A stretch of DNA of 12,794 bases from a bacterium (GTDB lineage: Bacteria; UBA9089; JASEGY01). The stretch's first letter is position 1. Each line of letters begins with the position of its first letter. Made by a program: the position numbers and the translations under genes. This document shows positions 2,482-11,510 of this stretch, piece by piece. Location of the stretch: contig JASEGY010000056.1 in the NCBI GenBank assembly GCA_030019105.1, positions 1 to 12,794 on the forward strand, in the 5' to 3' direction. Below the pieces are notes generated by a model that was not told where the DNA came from, ran no database searches, and was given only the letters and a program-made list of their open reading frames with translations.

Positions 2482-3222
2482 TCATCTGTTCGATCTTCTG
2501 ATGGTTATTACTCCCCAGTAGAAACAGACGACGAAAACGGCCAGCATAATACCGAGGGAAATTATCTCCACCCCCTGCCCCAGAAAACTTGCCCGCAACG
2601 CCTTGCTGGCATGGGTTAGTGGCAAGAAATAGAGCACAGCCTTGATAAAATAAGGTAGTCTGTCCACCGGGAAGAATGTACCGCAAAAGAAAGCCATCGG
2701 CATGATGAAGAAGTTGGAAAAGGTGGCGGTGTCCTCGTGTGATTTTGCCCGGAAACCGGCAATGACACCAAAGGAAGCAAAGATCAGGCAGTTTAGCAGC
2801 CAGACTGGAAAAAAGACAGGACTTTTAGGAAATCCTGCCCCAAAGATAGCCCCGGCAACTAAAATCAAACTTGAGGCAAAGAGTCCGCGAACTACTCCGG
2901 ACAAGACTTCACCAAGCATTATATCCGTGGCTGTAACCGGGCTTACCTGGAACTCGTCAAATGTCTTAAAATGGAGCCTGCCAACCGCAATAGTGGTAGC
3001 AATCCAGGAATACGAATTGGTCATCGAACTCATGGCGCAGATACCTGGTACGACAAAGGCAAGATAAGATACCCCTTCAATACTGATCCCACGACCAAGT
3101 CCCAGGCCAAAGGCAACTAAGTACAATAGAGGTGTGACCATAGTTGAGAAGAGGTAGCCAATACGCAGGAGCCGACGCTTGAAAATAAGCATCTCGCGCA
3201 GAAAGATAGGATAGAAGTTCAT
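2482..3222 (-). CDS. ABC-2 type transporter permease (DrrB/NodJ-like)
   Basis: A 246-residue integral membrane protein of the ABC-2 export family, with about six hydrophobic segments (near 18-43, 51-73, 108-131, 135-157, 168-186 and 224-241). FFCGTFFPVDRLP and the following LPLTHASKALR are typical of the DrrB/NodJ C-terminal half. Its ATG overlaps the ATPase stop by 4 nt (ATGA), so the two are translationally coupled and should form one exporter, with two permeases and two ATPases. The substrate cannot be read from the sequence. Because it is co-translated with chelatase subunits, a tetrapyrrole, metal or related substrate is possible, but DrrAB relatives export many lipids, drugs and glycans. 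It is the last intact gene of the overlapping set. Confidence 0.92.
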   Translation of the reverse strand: MNFYPIFLREMLIFKRRLLRIGYLFSTMVTPLLYLVAFGLGLGRGISIEGVSYLAFVVPGICAMSSMTNSYSWIATTIAVGRLHFKTFDEFQVSPVTATDIMLGEVLSGVVRGLFASSLILVAGAIFGAGFPKSPVFFPVWLLNCLIFASFGVIAGFRAKSHEDTATFSNFFIMPMAFFCGTFFPVDRLPYFIKAVLYFLPLTHASKALRASFLGQGVEIISLGIMLAVFVVCFYWGVITIRRSNR

Positions 3223-4052
3223 CTCTCAATCCTCTCACCGGTAAGCTTAATAAAGACATCCTCTAAATTTGACTCCCGAATAACGACATCATCGCCCCTT
3301 GTTTGCGCAAACCTGTAGGCCTCCTCGCGACCTTCAAATAACCTGTAATTAGTCACCCCATCATCAAGGGATTCGACCACGAAGCGGCCTATTTGGGCCT
3401 TGAGTTCGGGAGGTGTGCCCAGGACAATCAACTTGCCGTGACTGAGTATCCCTACCCGATGGCACAGGAGCTCGGCCTCTTCGATGTAATGAGTAGTCAA
3501 TAAGACAGTTACACCCTGTTGTTTCAGATTGCGGATAAGGTCCCATATCTGACGCCGTACCTGGGGATCAAGTCCGACTGTAGGCTCGTCTAAAAAAAGC
3601 ACTCCGGGCCGGTGCATAATTGATCGGGCTACAAGAAGCCGCCGCTGCATCCCCCCGGAATAGGTCTTAACTAAGCTGTCTGCCCGCTCAGATAATCCTG
3701 TCCACTTAAGCAGATATTCTATTCTTTCCTCTATCCCCTTCATCTGATGAAGCAGTCCGTGCAGACGGAGATTCTCTCTGCCGGTAAGCTCACGGTCCAG
3801 ATTCAATTCTTGCGGGGCTACGCCAATCAGCCGTTTGACCTTAGTGGCTTCCCTGACCACATCCAGTCCGTTGATCTCTGCCCGGCCGGAAGTTGGCAAG
3901 GTCAAGGTATTGAGCATACGGACAGTGGTGGTCTTACCTGCCCCATTCGGGCCAAGCAGACCAAATATCTCACCCTTTACGATGTGCAGATTGAGCTTCT
4001 CAACAGCCTTTATCTGCCCAAAATACTTGGTTAAATTTTCTGTTATAATCAT
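3219..4052 (-). CDS. ABC transporter ATP-binding protein (DrrA-like)
   Basis: A 277-residue nucleotide-binding subunit that powers the adjacent ABC-2 permease. It has a complete ATPase core: Walker [10 protein letters not shown] (34-42), the Q-loop region (APQELNLD), signature YSGGMQRR, Walker [13 protein letters not shown] and the switch histidine in TTHYIEEAE. The C-terminal extension after the core (ending [17 protein letters not shown]) is typical of DrrA-like and other ABC-2 exporter ATPases. The ATG overlaps the VWA gene stop by 4 nt (ATGA at 4052-4049) and its own stop overlaps the permease start by 4 nt. All catalytic motifs look intact. The substrate is unknown; class assignment is confident. 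Confidence 0.95.
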
Positions 4053-4939
4053 ATAGCTTCCTTAACCAGGGTAGAAATAGCCTCAGCCTTTATATCCTCT
4101 AAGGAGTAATATCTCCCACCTAAGCCTTGAGAAAGCTCCTGCAATCTTCCCAGGCGGACAAATCCTGTTTCGGTATCTATGACGATTGACTTTACTCCGG
4201 CTGACTTTATCTTAGCCGCAATCTCTCTGGCCTCTTCAAAGGGCTTAGCCTCCTTCCGGATACTTACATTTGCCTTGCCATCTGTAACTAACACCATTAG
4301 CGTGGCCAGACGTTCATCCTTTCTTAATTCTCGCCGGATAATGTCCAGCCCTAATTGCAAGCCCGAAGAAAGGGGTGTCTTGCCTCCTGTGGGTAACTCC
4401 TCAAGTCTCGCGGAAGCTAATTCTACGCTGTTGGTGGGCGGGAGCAGAACTTCCGCTTTGTTTCCCTTGAAGGCCAGCATGCCTACCCGGTCCCTTTTCT
4501 GGTAGGAGTCGATAAGTAAGGAAAAAATAGCCCCTTTGGCGGCGGTCATCCGTTGTGAAGCCCCCATAGAACCTGATGAGTCTACTACAAACAGTACCAG
4601 ATTGCCGATTTTCTTCTCCCTTACCTTCTCCCGGATATCTTGCCGCTCGATAACCATCTTCCGACCCCTGACCCCTGACCCCTGACCCCTGTCTAATTGG
4701 TGCGGCGCTGCTGCCCGGAAGGTGGCATCAAAGGCAATATCGCTTACCTTTCCCCCTGGTAAGCTGCTTTTTGTATATCTTCCCCTCTTATCCCTGGAAA
4801 CAGTTTTACTCCTTCTTCCGGCGCCATCCTTCATCTCTTTTTCTTTTGGCAGCCGGAAATCTTTTACCTCAAAAGGCGCTCCTGTCTCAAAATGGGTCTC
4901 GGTGCTTGAATCCGGCTGCTCCTGCTGCCCGTCAGTCAT
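4049..4939 (-). CDS. chlD: VWA-domain chelatase subunit (ChlD/BchD C-terminal type)
   Basis: Read from ATG 4939 this is a 296-residue VWA protein. The MIDAS is complete: D120-x-S122-x-S124 in DSSGS, T188 in GGKTPL and D220 in VTDG. This matches the C-terminal, integrin-I-like half of ChlD/BchD and of the fused cobaltochelatase subunit found beside cobN. The AAA+ half is missing because it is in the preceding gene. Residues about 83-94 ([12 protein letters not shown]) are encoded by a 7-bp tandem array. The start is uncertain: ATG 4939 overlaps the chlI stop by 8 nt, and AAGGAGG touches the ATG with no spacer, a poor distance for ordinary initiation. The frame is open upstream inside chlI, so the product could instead be made by a +1 frameshift from chlI as a ~668-residue protein. 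The stop overlaps the ABC ATPase start. Confidence 0.88.
4663..4690. repeat. Perfect heptamer array inside chlD, GACCCCT x4
   Basis: Four exact 7-bp units within the VWA gene, translated as part of a Gly/Arg/Ser-rich linker just before the VWA domain. Because 7 is not a multiple of 3, gain or loss of one unit would shift the frame; a change of three units would not. Confidence 0.9.
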
Positions 4940-4947
4940 CCTCCTTA
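4930..4947 (-). promoter_or_regulatory. chlI/chlD junction: candidate +1 recoding or reinitiation site
   Basis: On the minus strand the junction reads AAGGAGG then ATGACTGAC. The zero-frame stop is TGA followed by C, a weak termination context. A strong Shine-Dalgarno-like AGGAGG ends 5 nt before it, much like the prfB +1 frameshift site (6 nt there). The VWA frame is +1 relative to chlI. The P-site codon GAC does not re-pair well with ACU, which weakens simple slippage. The overlapping ATG offers reinitiation as the alternative. Confidence 0.5.
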
Positions 4948-6056
4948 CTGTCTTGATCCTTATCTTCACCCTGGGGCGAAGGACTCTGATTGGACTCAGA
5001 TTGTTGAGGCGGACTTTTTTGCTTTTTATGCTCCTGGATAGTCTGCTCAAGCTGCTCTTGCTCCATCTTTCTGTCCTGGAAAGGCTTCTTTCGCATTCGA
5101 TGAGGCAGGACAAGCTCTGCTGCTTCCCGGACATCCTCTTCTGTCACCTCAGTCCGTTCATGATAGGCGGCAATTGTCCGCGATGTCTTCATCATAAAGA
5201 TATCCGCCCGATGTCCATCTACCTGCATATCTACCGCTATTTTGGCAATCAGCTCCAGCATGCCGTCAGACAATACTACCTTGTGAAGCAGTCCCTCGGC
5301 ATCAACTATCAATTTGCTTAAAGTCTTCTCTTCCTCATCCCACTTAGCCACGAATTGGGCTGAAGCTTCCTCAAAGCCCTGCCGTCTTTTGATGATCTCC
5401 ACCCTGGCCCTGGGGTCGTCTATTCCCTCAATATTTACACAAAGGCCGAATCTATCGAGTAATTGAGGCCGAAGCTCCCCCTCTTCAGGATTCATGGTGC
5501 CGATCAGAATAAAGTGGGCCGGATGGGAAAAGGAGACACCTTCTCTCTCAATGGTATTGACACCCATGGCCGCCGAATCAAGGAGGACATCAACGATGTG
5601 ATCATCCAGCAGGTTTACTTCATCTACATAGAGTATCGCCCGATGGGCATCAGCCAGAACCCCTGGCTCAAACTTCTTCTCGCCGGTCTTTAAGGCATGC
5701 TCAATGTCGAGCGTTCCAACTACCCTGTCCTCGGTTGCTCCGACGGGCAGGTTGACCACTCGCATCTTCCTCCTGATTACAGGCAGGGATTCACCCTGGG
5801 CCTTTCGATGGCGACATTCATGGCACATCAACTCCTCGCGTTGCGGGTGACAGCTAAAGGGACAGCCGGAAACCACCTCAATCTCCGGCAGAAGGTTGGC
5901 CAGCGCCCTGGCCGCAGTTGATTTAGCCGTGCCTTTTTCTCCCCGAATAAGCACGCCGGACAGCCCAGGATTGATGGCGTTCAACACCAGGGCCTTCTTC
6001 ATCCTTTCCTGGCCAACAATAGCGGTAAATGGAAATATTATACTTCGACAGCTCAT
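4932..6056 (-). CDS. chlI: AAA+ chelatase subunit (ChlI/BchI type)
   Basis: A 374-residue AAA+ ATPase that drives metal insertion by the large chelatase subunit. Walker A is GEKGTAKS (39-46), Walker [11 protein letters not shown] (141-150), and the sensor-1 and arginine-finger region [19 protein letters not shown] (186-204). Four cysteines (C65, C69, C78, C81) make a CX3C...CX2C pair that may bind a metal. Past the normal end of ChlI it carries a Lys/Gln/Ser/Pro then Asp/Glu-rich tail (about 336-374), which is the linker normally found between the AAA+ and VWA halves of the medium subunit. GGAGGT lies 9 nt before the ATG. With cobN nearby and no chlorophyll genes, cobalt rather than magnesium is the likely metal. 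It runs into the VWA gene by an 8-nt overlap. Confidence 0.93.
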
Positions 6057-7344: not shown

Positions 7345-7361
7345 AAGAAATCTGGTTTCTT
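7345..7361. repeat. Short palindrome overlapping the cobN stop
   Basis: AAGAAA-TCTGG-TTTCTT (6-bp arms, 5-nt loop) overlaps the cobN stop codon. On the cobN strand no U-run follows, so it is not a convincing intrinsic terminator. It may be another dispersed repeat or a 3'-end stabiliser. Confidence 0.4.
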
Positions 7362-10300
7362 AGATCGTATCTCTGTTAAGTTCCCTCTTTATCTCCTGCA
7401 TCTTGGCCCCCCAGTCAGCCACATCTTCGGCGGTGAGGATATCTATCGAGCCGCCCTGGAAGTCACCGATTATATCGCCCATCTTTTCTTCAATCCAGCC
7501 CTCGATCTCGATGTAGGCATTTTTCAGCCCTTCCAGGACCTCCGGATCGGCATCCCATAGACCCCGCTGCTGTGCCTCAAGCAGCCGGCGGCCGATCTCC
7601 TCTAAAGCCCAGGGGTTGTTCTCCTCAAAGAATTTCTTGTTCTCCTCATTCAGGACAAAGGTGCTGGTAATGTCATCAAAAATCCAGTCATCTACCTCCT
7701 GCGTGGTGGCCTCCCAGCCGTAGACCCGGCCGATGCGTTTGGAGATGTCTCCGGCTCCTTTGTAGCCGTGCTGTTTTTGGCCCTCGATCCATTTGGGATT
7801 AAGCAGCTTTGTTCGCACCACCCGCCTGACTTCATCGGCCATGTCCCTGACCTCGACATGCTCCGGCTCGCGGGTATCGCCGTAGTAGGTCTTGACTTCT
7901 TTGCCGGAGATATGCCTGGCAGCCGCAGTCATCCCGCCGTGGGCGCCAAAGTAACAGCAGCAGCCAAACAGGTCGTGTTCGTCAGAAACCACCTTGTTGT
8001 AGGTTATATCTACCGTCTTTAAATTGTCAGCCAATTGACGGTGCTTCTCTTCGCCAAATATCCCCTTGCCGTAGGCATATCCATTCCAATAGACGAATAC
8101 ATCCGAGAGGTCGGCCTCATCCTTCCAGGCCGAGGCATAGACGGCCAATTGCGTTCCTGCCTGGTAGGTGCCGGGTTTTGAGGCAAAGACCCGCAAGGTA
8201 GCATCCCGCCACAATTGCGGATTGCGCACCCACTCCGTGGGTACACGGGATTGCGGATCTTCAGATTGTTGACTAATCTGAGCAAGTGTATGCTTACGGA
8301 CAAAATTCATCTCCTCCGGCTCAGGCAGGGAGGCCACGGCCTGGATGGTCTCATCCAGCAGCTCAATACAATTAGGGAAGTTGTCCCGGGTTATGCCGGA
8401 AACACGAATAGTAACATCAATCCTGGGCCGGCCTAATTCCTCTAAGGGAATCACCTCAAAGCCCTTTACCCGGCCATTTGGCTGCCAGACAGGCTTGACG
8501 CCCAGTAGATAGAATATCTGGGCCATCCCTTCACCGTCAGACCACATGATGTCAGTGCATTGCCAGTAGATAGCCACATTCTCCGGCAGTTTGCCTTCTT
8601 CTTGCCTGTGCTTTTCAATCACGGCCCCGGCCAATTTCCGGCCTACCTTCCAGGCGGCCTTGGTAGGGATCCGGTGCGGATCAAGGGAGTAGAAATTCCT
8701 GCCTGTGGGTAAGATGTCGTCCCGCCCCCGGTTAATCAGGCCCGAAGGGCCAGGGGGAATGTAACCGCCATCAAAGCCGTGGAGAAGCGCTTCAATCTCC
8801 TGCGACTCATCAATTCGCCTGTTCAAATCAGTCAGCCTTTCCTGGATTACCCCCAGACTGTCTATGTACTCTGCCTTCTTCAACCCCTCACCAAGAACTT
8901 CCTTAGCCATGTTGCCCGGGTCTTTTCCACGCTTAAGCATCCGGCGGATAAATTCCTTGCAGAGGGTATCGATCTCTTCTAATAACTCACCGTAACTTTG
9001 CTTGTGATGCGGGCAAACCTTGCCGCCATCCGCCAGCATCTCAGCCAGATTCATGCCCATCATCCCGGCGACAATCTTTCTTAAAGAGACTTCCTCACCC
9101 GCATCGTAACGCAGGATGGAGTTAATGAAATCCACCCGCTTCTCACCTTCCGGCAACCGGCCAAAGATGTGCATCCCATCCTGGATTTGGGTATTTCTCG
9201 TCAGGGACAATGCCCCGTGAGCAGCCCGGGCTATCTCATCAAAGGGGATGGATTTAACCTCATCCTCACTAAGCTCATTGAGAGCCGCTTTTTTAAATCC
9301 GCAATCCGCAATCCCGGCTACCCACGAAGTGGGTGCGCAATCAACCTTTATCTCTTTGTCCAGATTGGTCTTCTGAATTGCATCCATAATCAGGTGCTGC
9401 AAGGCATGCGCCCGTCCGGGGTCAACATCCTTCAACTGCTCATATTCACCCAGGAACTGCCCCAATTCCTCAAGTTCCTCGTAAAGCCCGCCCTGGGTCA
9501 TTACTGTTTGCATGTGGTCAACCAGGATGGCATAGCTGCGACGCTTAGCAATAGTGCCCTCCGGGGGGTTGTCCGCATTGTAGATGTAAAGGTGCGGGAT
9601 GTCCCCAATGCCAATGTCCGGATAGCAGTCACCAGACAGGGCGGTGCCTTTGCCGGGCAAGAATTCCAGGTTGCCGTGCGTGCCGACATGGACAATCACA
9701 TCCACCTCAAAGTCACGCTCTAAATAGCGGTAGGTAGCCATGTACTGATGCGGCGGCGGGATGTCCGGGTCGTGGAGTATCTTACAGACCTGGCCGTCAC
9801 ATCTTGCTCCGGCACAGCCGCGCTTGGGCTGGATACAGACAACGGCGTTACCATACTGCACTCCAGTGACTAATATCTTGCCGTCATAGACCATGGCCGG
9901 CGGCACACCGTTTACCTCTTCACCCGGAGGCTGACCCCAGGCATTATTCATCCGATCCTTGACCTCAGGCGAAAGGGTGTCAAACCACTCCTCGTATTCT
10001 TCTTTGGTTACCTGCTTCAGGACACCGCCTTTATTGACTATCTCATCCACGGTAGTCCAGCGAAACTCGCTGATGGCCTTGCGGTCCATAATCGTTTCGA
10101 TCAATTCCTTGCCATCGGCCGGCGGCTCGACGCTGTAGCCGGCCTCTCTCATCCGGCGCATTATCCGGGCTACACTCTCTAAGGTGTCCAGATTAGCGCC
10201 GCCGCCTACCGTGGTCTCCACTGAGGCACAGGGGTTGCTGTGCAGGATAAAGGCCACCTTGCGCTCCCGGACCGGTTTCTGTCGCAGCCTCACCCAGTTG

Positions 10301-11352
10301 GCCACCCGCCGGGCAACCTTCCGGCACCGCTCCCGGATCGGCATCCGCTGTTGCAAGTCGCCTTCTTCCTTGCTTCCCCCGCCAATGATGATTGGCTCAA
10401 TCACGCCTTCAAACTCCGGCATGGCAATCGACCAGCCAATACCAGCCCCCAGTCCATCCTTATCATTCTTCCATTCCTCAATAGTTCTGGAGTAAGAGGT
10501 CACCGGTGAGAAGACCGGCACATCAAATCTCTTCAGGATATCCACGCCACCGGAAGCTACCTCCTTGTCGCTGAGACCCTTTCCCCTGGCATTGTCCAGG
10601 AAGAAGTTTTGGAGCTTGATGAGGGCATCAATCCGCGGAGTTCCATCCTGGCCCAAGAAATACTCACAGACCACCTCTCTACTCCCCTTGCATCCCCGCT
10701 CTTCATCCTTAACCGAGTAGGAAAAGGCCGGGATGACATTCAAACCCAATGCCTCTAACTCACGAATCAGGGCATCTTCGACCTCTAGGTTGTCATTCAC
10801 CCAGTAATGGCGGGAGAGAAGGAGAGCAACATAAGTCTTATAAGACTTATAAGTCATATACCACTCCAGATATTTCTCAACAGTGCTAAAAATCCCCGGC
10901 GCATCAGGATGATACAGGCCTTCCCAGGGAACCGGCTTCGGCTCTGCTGCCTCCACATCAAGCCCGCCTGCCTCACGGGCGATGTAGCGCAGCATATTGG
11001 TGAAGTTCTCCTCGCCGTTGATAACTAAGTAGGAGTAGACATTAGCTACCACCTCCGGCTTGACGGTTGAGAGCATCCAGTAGGATGGGTCGTGCCCGAC
11101 GCAGACAATGGGCGTCTTTTTGCCCAGCTCCCGCAGCCTCTCTTCGATCGTTTCCCAGAACCCCTCGGTTGAGCGGTAAAGAAAGATAATGTCAGCACCG
11201 GCCGCCTCCTCAAGCACTGAGTCAAGCCTTTCCGGCTCATCCTCTAACCTTTTCGAGGAATAAGCCTTAACCTCCACAAGGTCTGTTGCCTTCCTGCTTG
11301 CGCGAACAAGCATGTTAAGGTAACTTTGCCACATAATTGAAACAATCTTCAT
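7360..11352 (-). CDS. cobN: Cobaltochelatase large subunit CobN
   Basis: A 1330-residue large subunit that binds the corrin ring and inserts cobalt with ATPase partners. Diagnostic blocks are HDPDIPPPHQY, HVGTHGNLEFLPGKG (H555, H559), YNADNPPEGTIAKRRSYA, then GAHGGMTAAARHISG (H1138), VRTKLLNPKWIEGQKQHGYKGAGDI and NPWALEEIGRRLLEAQQRGLW. Length is in the CobN range. The ATG at 11352 (MKIVSIMWQ) is chosen because AAGGAG sits 8 nt upstream and it begins at the conserved N-terminus; an ATG at 11430 would add 26 unrelated residues and place the ribosome site inside the gene. Features that differ from Pseudomonas CobN are a CX4CX4C motif (C513, C518, C523) and a Cys triplet (C1131-C1133). Two palindromic repeats are inserted in frame at about residues 671-683 and 1032-1045. 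Its partners are probably chlI and chlD downstream. Confidence 0.97.
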   Translation of the reverse strand: MKIVSIMWQSYLNMLVRASRKATDLVEVKAYSSKRLEDEPERLDSVLEEAAGADIIFLYRSTEGFWETIEERLRELGKKTPIVCVGHDPSYWMLSTVKPEVVANVYSYLVINGEENFTNMLRYIAREAGGLDVEAAEPKPVPWEGLYHPDAPGIFSTVEKYLEWYMTYKSYKTYVALLLSRHYWVNDNLEVEDALIRELEALGLNVIPAFSYSVKDEERGCKGSREVVCEYFLGQDGTPRIDALIKLQNFFLDNARGKGLSDKEVASGGVDILKRFDVPVFSPVTSYSRTIEEWKNDKDGLGAGIGWSIAMPEFEGVIEPIIIGGGSKEEGDLQQRMPIRERCRKVARRVANWVRLRQKPVRERKVAFILHSNPCASVETTVGGGANLDTLESVARIMRRMREAGYSVEPPADGKELIETIMDRKAISEFRWTTVDEIVNKGGVLKQVTKEEYEEWFDTLSPEVKDRMNNAWGQPPGEEVNGVPPAMVYDGKILVTGVQYGNAVVCIQPKRGCAGARCDGQVCKILHDPDIPPPHQYMATYRYLERDFEVDVIVHVGTHGNLEFLPGKGTALSGDCYPDIGIGDIPHLYIYNADNPPEGTIAKRRSYAILVDHMQTVMTQGGLYEELEELGQFLGEYEQLKDVDPGRAHALQHLIMDAIQKTNLDKEIKVDCAPTSWVAGIADCGFKKAALNELSEDEVKSIPFDEIARAAHGALSLTRNTQIQDGMHIFGRLPEGEKRVDFINSILRYDAGEEVSLRKIVAGMMGMNLAEMLADGGKVCPHHKQSYGELLEEIDTLCKEFIRRMLKRGKDPGNMAKEVLGEGLKKAEYIDSLGVIQERLTDLNRRIDESQEIEALLHGFDGGYIPPGPSGLINRGRDDILPTGRNFYSLDPHRIPTKAAWKVGRKLAGAVIEKHRQEEGKLPENVAIYWQCTDIMWSDGEGMAQIFYLLGVKPVWQPNGRVKGFEVIPLEELGRPRIDVTIRVSGITRDNFPNCIELLDETIQAVASLPEPEEMNFVRKHTLAQISQQSEDPQSRVPTEWVRNPQLWRDATLRVFASKPGTYQAGTQLAVYASAWKDEADLSDVFVYWNGYAYGKGIFGEEKHRQLADNLKTVDITYNKVVSDEHDLFGCCCYFGAHGGMTAAARHISGKEVKTYYGDTREPEHVEVRDMADEVRRVVRTKLLNPKWIEGQKQHGYKGAGDISKRIGRVYGWEATTQEVDDWIFDDITSTFVLNEENKKFFEENNPWALEEIGRRLLEAQQRGLWDADPEVLEGLKNAYIEIEGWIEEKMGDIIGDFQGGSIDILTAEDVADWGAKMQEIKRELNRDTI
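8220..8258 (+). repeat. 39-nt palindromic element inside cobN, copy A
   Basis: The centre is ACCCACTCCGTGGGT, a hairpin with 6-bp arms, flanked by GATTGCGC and GGGATTGCGGAT. It is identical at 36 of 39 positions to the reverse complement of 9304-9342. In cobN it encodes roughly residues 1032-1045 (DPQSRVPTEWVRNP), just before the conserved LRVFASKPGTY region, in a stretch that looks longer than usual. Confidence 0.85.
9297..9342 (-). repeat. 39-nt palindromic element inside cobN, copy B, with heptamer extension
   Basis: The core 9304-9342 is the inverted copy of 8220-8258 (36 of 39). One side extends as ATCCGCA ATCCGCA ATCCCGG, a 7-bp period. It encodes about residues 671-686 of CobN (APTSWVAGIADCGF). 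The cobN frame stays open through both copies although they lie in opposite orientations. Confidence 0.85.
10831..10850. repeat. Perfect 20-bp palindrome inside cobN
   Basis: ATAAGTCTTATAAGACTTAT equals its own reverse complement. With the following bases it forms three 9-bp units, giving the repetitive peptide MTYKSYKTY in CobN at about residues 166-174. Confidence 0.8.
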
Positions 11353-11368
11353 TCTGCGTCTCCTTTCC

Positions 11369-11510
11369 ATTAACTCGAGAGTTAAAAGTTCTCGTGTGTC
11401 TTCGAGGCTAACCCATTTAAAATAGGCCACTTACCTTTAATGACGGGCAGTTCTGCAAAAGTCAACAGTACCAATGGCTTACGGAGAACTTTTAACTGTC
11501 GAGTCATTAA
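11369..11510. repeat. Inverted-repeat-bounded element upstream of cobN (~142 bp)
   Basis: The left arm (11370-11395) contains GAGTTAAAAGTTCTC and the right arm (11481-11510) contains GAGAACTTTTAACTG, so the two are inverted copies with a small indel and a few mismatches. About 85 bp lie between them and contain no convincing gene. The element ends only about 3 nt upstream of the cobN Shine-Dalgarno sequence, so it must form most of the cobN 5' leader. Confidence 0.7.
11436..11465 (-). promoter_or_regulatory. Candidate cobN promoter within the inverted-repeat element
   Basis: On the minus strand TTGACT (11465-11460) and ATTAAA (11441-11436) are 18 nt apart, about 84 bp before the cobN ATG. 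The -10 is only moderate. If real, cobN is transcribed from inside the repeat element. I looked for a B12-box or cobalamin riboswitch in 11353-11637 and saw none. Confidence 0.3.

Follow-up and report, generated by a model that had tools for sequence, protein, structure and literature searches.

How might a cell obtain a fused AAA+/VWA chelatase subunit from a gene whose two halves lie in different reading frames? The window, by which we mean the whole 12,794-nt stretch of bacterial DNA analysed here, raises this question on its minus strand, where a single cobaltochelatase model, TIGR02442 (putative cobaltochelatase, 641 positions), is covered jointly by two frames. The chlI-like zero frame (4932-6056, minus strand) encodes 374 aa, comprising an AAA+ domain, a lid and an acidic Q/S/P-rich linker tail, and ends at a TGA stop; it matches model positions 1-359 (E = 7.6e-163) as well as PF01078 and PF17863. 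The VWA frame, read from an overlapping ATG (4049-4939, minus strand), is +1 relative to chlI, encodes 296 aa and matches model positions 373-641 (E = 5.1e-90) and PF13519. Upstream, in the same direction, lies cobN (7360-11430, minus strand; NF004646, 2060 bits), which encodes the large chelatase subunit.

Read on the minus strand, the 3′ end of the chlI frame is ...GAC AGT AAG GAG GAT GAC TGA C..., giving a junction of the form AAGGAGG-ATGAC-TGA-C. AAGGAGG (4940-4946, minus strand) is complementary to the 3′ region of the genome's own 16S gene (locus L129; GGATCACCTCCTTT). Its AGGAGG core (4940-4945) ends 5 nt before the TGA (4932-4934, followed by C at 4931) and adjoins, with no spacer, the ATG of the VWA frame (4937-4939). 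The final zero-frame sense codon, GAC (4935-4937), is the candidate P-site codon of a +1 shift; with UGA in the A site, the spacing from AGGAGG to this codon is 2 nt. The chlI stop and the VWA start overlap by 8 nt (ATGACTGA). The VWA frame itself runs without interruption from 5143, which lies 209 nt 5′ of where the zero-frame stop begins, as far as its stop at 4049; positions 4932-5143 are open in both frames. The preliminary description had pointed to this +1 overlap at AAGGAGG, to the position of AGGAGG relative to the stop and the ATG, and to predicted products of 374 aa from termination and about 668 aa from a +1 shift, all of which we confirm: a shift at GAC_TGA_C is predicted to yield 374 + 294 = 668 aa, and the open frames of fused relatives are 657 and 660 aa long. 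Readthrough of the UGA in the zero frame was rejected, as it gains only 14 codons before the next stop. In the three +1 loci scored, the VWA frame has no start other than the ATG within 30 nt of the stop. The VWA-frame linker also contains about four copies of a 7-bp repeat, GACCCCT (4663-4691), in which a one-copy change would break the frame.

The window genome is a draft, about 95% complete and in 1053 contigs. The preliminary description had named a second full-length chlD as a point to check; none was found in this ~95% complete genome (the next-best TIGR02442 match scores 36.1 bits), nor was a separate small-subunit gene. The gene is present in seven of the 19 phylum genomes examined, with one match each at E ≤ 1e-40. 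Given one match per genome, the four genomes with the +1 layout would, in the absence of a shift, be left without any AAA+/VWA chain, as far as found. These four of the seven gene-bearing genomes, in which the layout occurs with AGGAGGATGAYTGA, are the window genome (family f1), G017 (f8), G005 (f5) and G013 (f8), and thus come from three families. G006 instead has a -1 junction with an A10 run, and G014 and G003 have a fused ORF. The VWA frame of G017 is cut by a contig end, so that this locus was scored as AAA-only in the segment count described below, and its junction was read directly; the contig ends near the stretch corresponding to the GACCCCT repeat (RGQGSG). The expectation that orthologues would keep AGGAGG-N5-UGA-C and the +1 register held in part: AGGAGG-N5-UGA and the register are kept in all four genomes, as is the ATG, and the base after UGA is C in three (C, T and C in G017, G005 and G013). 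The last sense codon is GAT in the three relatives. For comparison, of 149 long ORFs in the genome sample, 58 end in UGA.

A frame break in so fragmented a draft could stem from faulty assembly or sequencing, or from gene decay. Both window frames retain their domains, however, and the same kind of junction occurs in four genomes of three families. Third codon positions among the four +1 genes are 57-61% identical, while the ChlI proteins of the relatives are 85-88% identical to that of the window. Since the junction is shared despite this third-position divergence, it is not a sequencing error; we rule out assembly error or a pseudogene, to which we would assign next to no probability. Across the junction, 13 of 15 nucleotides are invariant, whereas the linker before it has 21 invariant nucleotides of 60 (Fisher p = 0.0004, with three gapped codon columns dropped), and AGGAGG, the ATG and the (K/Q)EDD peptide are not separable as the cause of this invariance. 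Among codons with a conserved residue, 14 of 89 four-fold and 46 of 98 twofold codons are invariant in the four +1 genes. The twofold figure makes invariant GAG and GAT codons unremarkable by themselves, so that the signal lies in the block as a whole. These comparisons draw on four sequences related by descent. The pattern AGGAGGATGNNTGA occurs 14 times in the 19 phylum genomes (three times for a reversed control pattern), but two long frames meet at just four of these 14 matches, namely the chlI/VWA junctions, so that a phylum-wide coupling element is not supported.

The fused 660-aa frame of G014, a close relative, is 85% identical in the AAA part, and its linker lacks AGGAGG, the ATG and KEDD, indicating that the motif accompanies the split. 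In the protein tree, the four +1 genes and G014 group together (support 86/98), with the inner order unresolved. The nucleotide tree of the AAA part rejects a clade of the four +1 genes (p-AU 0.007), whereas the VWA and joined protein trees, in which only three +1 genes are included, do not (p = 0.26 and 0.27). This close group has therefore probably switched between a fused and a +1 state, though the conclusion is not firm.

If the AAGGAGG served only to initiate translation of the VWA frame, it would be unusually placed. In 301 kb of the window genome (window included), AAGGAGG occurs 73 times; in 11 cases an ATG that begins a frame of at least 100 aa lies no more than 20 nt downstream, at 5-8 nt in eight of them and at spacing 0 in one, the chlI/VWA junction. 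Lying 0 nt from the ATG and 2 nt from the P codon, the Shine-Dalgarno (SD) sequence is badly set for initiation and nearly set for a shift. With looser motifs, GGAGG stands at spacing 0 to the ATG of a frame of at least 100 aa twice in the 301-kb sample (at the chlI/VWA site and at one putative start), and AGGAGG lies 2-3 nt from such an ATG four times (putative starts). AGGAGG also abuts the ATG of a 451-aa frame, again a putative start, in another genome (G012, L224). At the next junction in the putative operon, from VWA to an ABC ATPase, AAGGA lies about 6 nt before the ATG. Downstream of the +1 loci we detected no RNA structure beyond chance (z -1.1 to +1.5), while some -1 loci reach z -4.4.

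To place the junction among related genes, we surveyed 112 loci, 105 of them outside the phylum. From the GTDB genomes, the best 80 of at least 573 confirmed loci were used; in an additional sample of 386 genomes, 32 had a match at E ≤ 1e-110, and 18 loci were new. The AAGGAGG/ATG/UGA +1 layout is absent from the 105 loci outside the phylum, which were drawn partly from the best 80 of at least 573, and the -1 poly-A type is common among them. The 112 loci comprise 34 with a fused frame only, 32 with a fused frame and a standalone ChlI, 24 with a -1 split, four with a +1 split alone, one with a +1 split and a standalone AAA frame, one with a 0 split, and 16 with AAA frames only, most of which are cut by a contig end and thus not resolvable. 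Counted by segment (n = 153), 66 AAA segments are fused, 57 AAA-only, 24 split in -1, five split in +1 and one split in 0. Setting aside L208, which repeats the L059 junction, and L103, which looks like two separate archaeal genes, leaves 22 of the 24 -1 splits; every one of these has an A-run of 7-10 no more than 40 nt from the stop. The five +1 splits are three members of the phylum's +1 clade (L009, L011 and L012), L082, which resembles a two-gene archaeal pair, and L106, which lacks the motif. AGGAGG falls within the last 30 nt of 5 of 77 non-fused AAA frames, at -11 in the four +1-clade genes and at -23 in L021.

Several features of the survey loci merit separate mention. L021 (G048) is a distant relative (44% identical) whose AAA frame ends in AAAAAAATGA and has its AGGAGG at -23 relative to the stop. 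A frame of 400 codons, which does not score as VWA, overlaps it by ATGA. The linkers of four fused chlD genes (L092, L209 and L212, the last two from the same genus, and L015 of G003) contain an A8-A9 run followed by an early stop in the -1 frame, 1 codon on in the first three and 6 codons on in L015. By analogy with dnaX, such a run might allow a -1 shift to give a small subunit from a fused gene. A-runs of at least 7 nt occur in 7 of 34 fused chlD genes without a neighbouring chlI in the fetched stretch and in 5 of 32 with one, which is no clear difference; the former count leaves out L156 and L158, copies of L013 and L015, and becomes 8 of 36 rows with them.

The survey also bears on whether transcriptional slippage, or a shift at A-runs higher up in the linker, could join the frames as in other chlD genes. 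A-runs are present in the 22 -1 loci, and both the window (A6, about 86 nt before the stop) and G013 (A7, about 77 nt before the stop) have one within the stretch that is open in +1. Against this, in the three +1 loci scored, A-runs no more than 40 nt from the stop reach a length of only 2-4. Since the VWA frame is +1, slippage would require the loss of an A, and since the upstream run is only A4 in G005, the A-run is not conserved. We judge this explanation to be very improbable on the basis of the register and the non-conserved runs. We tentatively propose, with a confidence just below an even chance, that the locus is a frameshifted chlD gene, encoding the cobaltochelatase medium subunit, in a +1, SD/UGA-dependent form whose fused product arises by a shift. 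Ribosomes that have passed the AAA+ part would meet the UGA while AAGGAGG pairs with 16S rRNA 2 nt from the P-site Asp codon. Termination at the UGA would release the 374-aa small subunit, in the ChlI/CobS role, and slippage over or skipping of one nucleotide at GAY_UGA_Y would give the 668-aa AAA+/linker/VWA medium subunit, in the ChlD/CobT role; together these would serve the CobN enzyme. The layout, its conservation and the lack of any other chlD found are observed, whereas the shift itself, its site and efficiency, and the product roles are what we infer from them. The fused state of the close relative G014 and the -1 A10 junction of G006 in the same phylum argue for a shift. Re-pairing from GAC to ACU (or from GAU to AUU) is poor, the SD spacing is 2 rather than 3, and the junction has GAY where prfB has CTT, all of which argue against it.

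The strongest competing explanation, which we regard as a serious possibility although it too falls somewhat short of an even chance, is that ribosomes stop at the UGA, back up to the overlapping AUG and make only a separate 296-aa VWA protein, the clade having given up the fused medium subunit in favour of separate AAA+ and VWA chains. The ATG 5 nt before the stop is conserved in all four +1 genes (L009, L011, L012 and G017), whereas in the 22 -1 poly-A loci no start of the VWA frame lies 30 nt or less from the stop; this is the pattern that coupling predicts. The non-slippery nature of the GAY codon favours re-initiation as well, as do published results: according to passages of PMC6728339, 13 of 14 tested overlapping stop/start pairs were coupled, with a variable need for an SD, and a passage of PMC5009743 states that an SD just upstream of a stop may retain the 30S subunit for a restart. 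However, AAGGAGG directly abuts the ATG, as in only 1 of the 11 AAGGAGG/ATG pairs in the 301-kb sample. In addition, a separate VWA-only partner of this kind was recognised nowhere outside the clade among the 112 loci, although the 16 AAA-only loci, many cut by a contig end, could hide one. The three +1 genes scored retain 45-48 aa of linker tail on ChlI, but the tails of standalone ChlI proteins likewise differ widely in length, from 13 to 63 aa (one 339-aa artefact excluded). Tail length is weak evidence: of 46 untruncated AAA-only segments, the motif could be located in no more than 20, and in G005 it could not be located. In our view a shift has a small edge over re-initiation alone, mainly on account of where the SD lies and the lack of a fused subunit; this ranking is a matter of judgement rather than computation.

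We regard as rather unlikely a more specific version of the shift, namely a second mechanism, arisen independently of the poly-A -1 form, by which one gene yields two chelatase subunits. In it, the SD and UGA would drive a +1 shift at an Asp codon that does not re-pair, strain induced by the SD would by itself move the ribosome, and the overlapping AUG would give a third, free VWA product. Were the SD/UGA-driven reading true, the ratio of subunits would follow the level of RF2, as in prfB, since the stop is UGA.

In the window, cobN and chlI are separated by a Schlafen/AlbA_2 domain gene (PF04326; 6355-7209). The gap from the end of the cobN open frame to the beginning of that of chlI is 19 nt in G013 and 577 nt in G005. 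Downstream is an ABC-2 transporter pair (2482-4052), each gene overlapping the preceding one by ATGA, which is possibly in one operon with the chelatase. A minus-strand ORF at 1186-2010, for which we found no Pfam match, contains an imperfect 33-bp repeat in about five copies (1708-1880; DRKLTEEISEM units).

One small phylum thus holds the chelatase gene in a fused form, a form broken in -1 at poly-A and a form broken in +1 at an SD/UGA, with a fused form amid the +1 forms. This compact natural series can be used to ask whether recoding gives way to re-initiation and vice versa, and whether ribosomes can be driven into +1 by an AUG-abutting SD when no slippery codon is present. For annotation pipelines it is also a warning that a chlI/VWA pair of this sort may represent a single gene.

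Three known systems, together with dnaX, offer points of comparison. In dnaX, the short product comes from a frameshift. As there, one gene here would give long and short products with a common N-terminus, but the short chelatase product would come from termination. The prfB gene of the window genome itself carries a +1 site, GAGGTTGTCTTTGAC, and CTT_TGA sites are found in prfB of 17 of the 19 phylum genomes (L107-L125; 16 by a script looking for CT-codons first, plus L121; L124 and L125, the loci of G002 and G007, gave no such site). The SD-like motif upstream of the prfB site is weak in some genomes (for example L108 and L110). The preliminary description had likened the chelatase junction to prfB, and the likeness extends to an SD-like sequence just upstream, a UGA zero-frame stop and the +1 register. 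It does not extend to the spacing, which is 3 nt in prfB and 2 nt here, or to the P codon, which is the re-pairing CTT in prfB and GAY here; moreover, an in-frame ATG overlaps the chelatase site, and the gene codes for no release factor. A spacing of 3 nt from the P codon is also given for +1 shifts in a passage of PMC5009743, which presents Ty3 as a case of a +1 shift without realistic re-pairing and discusses yeast antizyme, GCG_UGA_C, beside it; both are eukaryotic.

With the coupled overlapping pairs described in the cited passages of PMC6728339, the junction has in common that stop and start overlap, that the SD lies inside the upstream gene and that a conserved downstream start is found within about 10 nt of the stop. 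It differs in that the SD abuts the ATG, a spacing of 0 that is not workable, and in that the products are halves of one polypeptide in relatives. Where a +1 transition falls at AT_G, Antonov et al. (PMC3711429) read it as pointing to overlapping genes; they also report that one cluster can show both coupling and frameshifting.

That chlD can be frameshifted, as the preliminary description had stated, is established in print (Antonov 2013, PMC3711429; Kuznetsov 2022, PMC9227772, both as far as the cited passages go). There, -1 junctions with an A-run of the G006 kind shift in reporters (PMC3711429), and -1 chlD frameshifts are said to be observed more often than +1 (PMC9227772). Among the titles and abstracts searched, none describes an SD/UGA form of chlD, which does not imply that no such paper exists. 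Antonov 2020 (MBE) is reportedly the paper behind the frequency statement of Kuznetsov 2022. The reporter-tested cases in the cited part of PMC3711429 are -1 with an A-run, whereas the junction here is +1, has no A_AAA_AAR slippery run, and carries a strong SD, a UGA and a start codon in the overlap; with a longest A-run of 2-4 near the stop, compared with 7-10 in the 22 -1 loci, it is not a member of the -1 poly-A type. What it shares with the published genes is a single chlD-type gene beside cobN, a break in the linker that places the AAA+ and VWA halves in two overlapping frames, conservation of the frame transition in relatives (four of seven gene-bearing phylum genomes), and two subunits proposed to come from one mRNA, with no separate small-subunit gene found. 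Judged by its sequence organisation, the gene appears to belong with the published frameshifted chlD genes, as a +1 variant.
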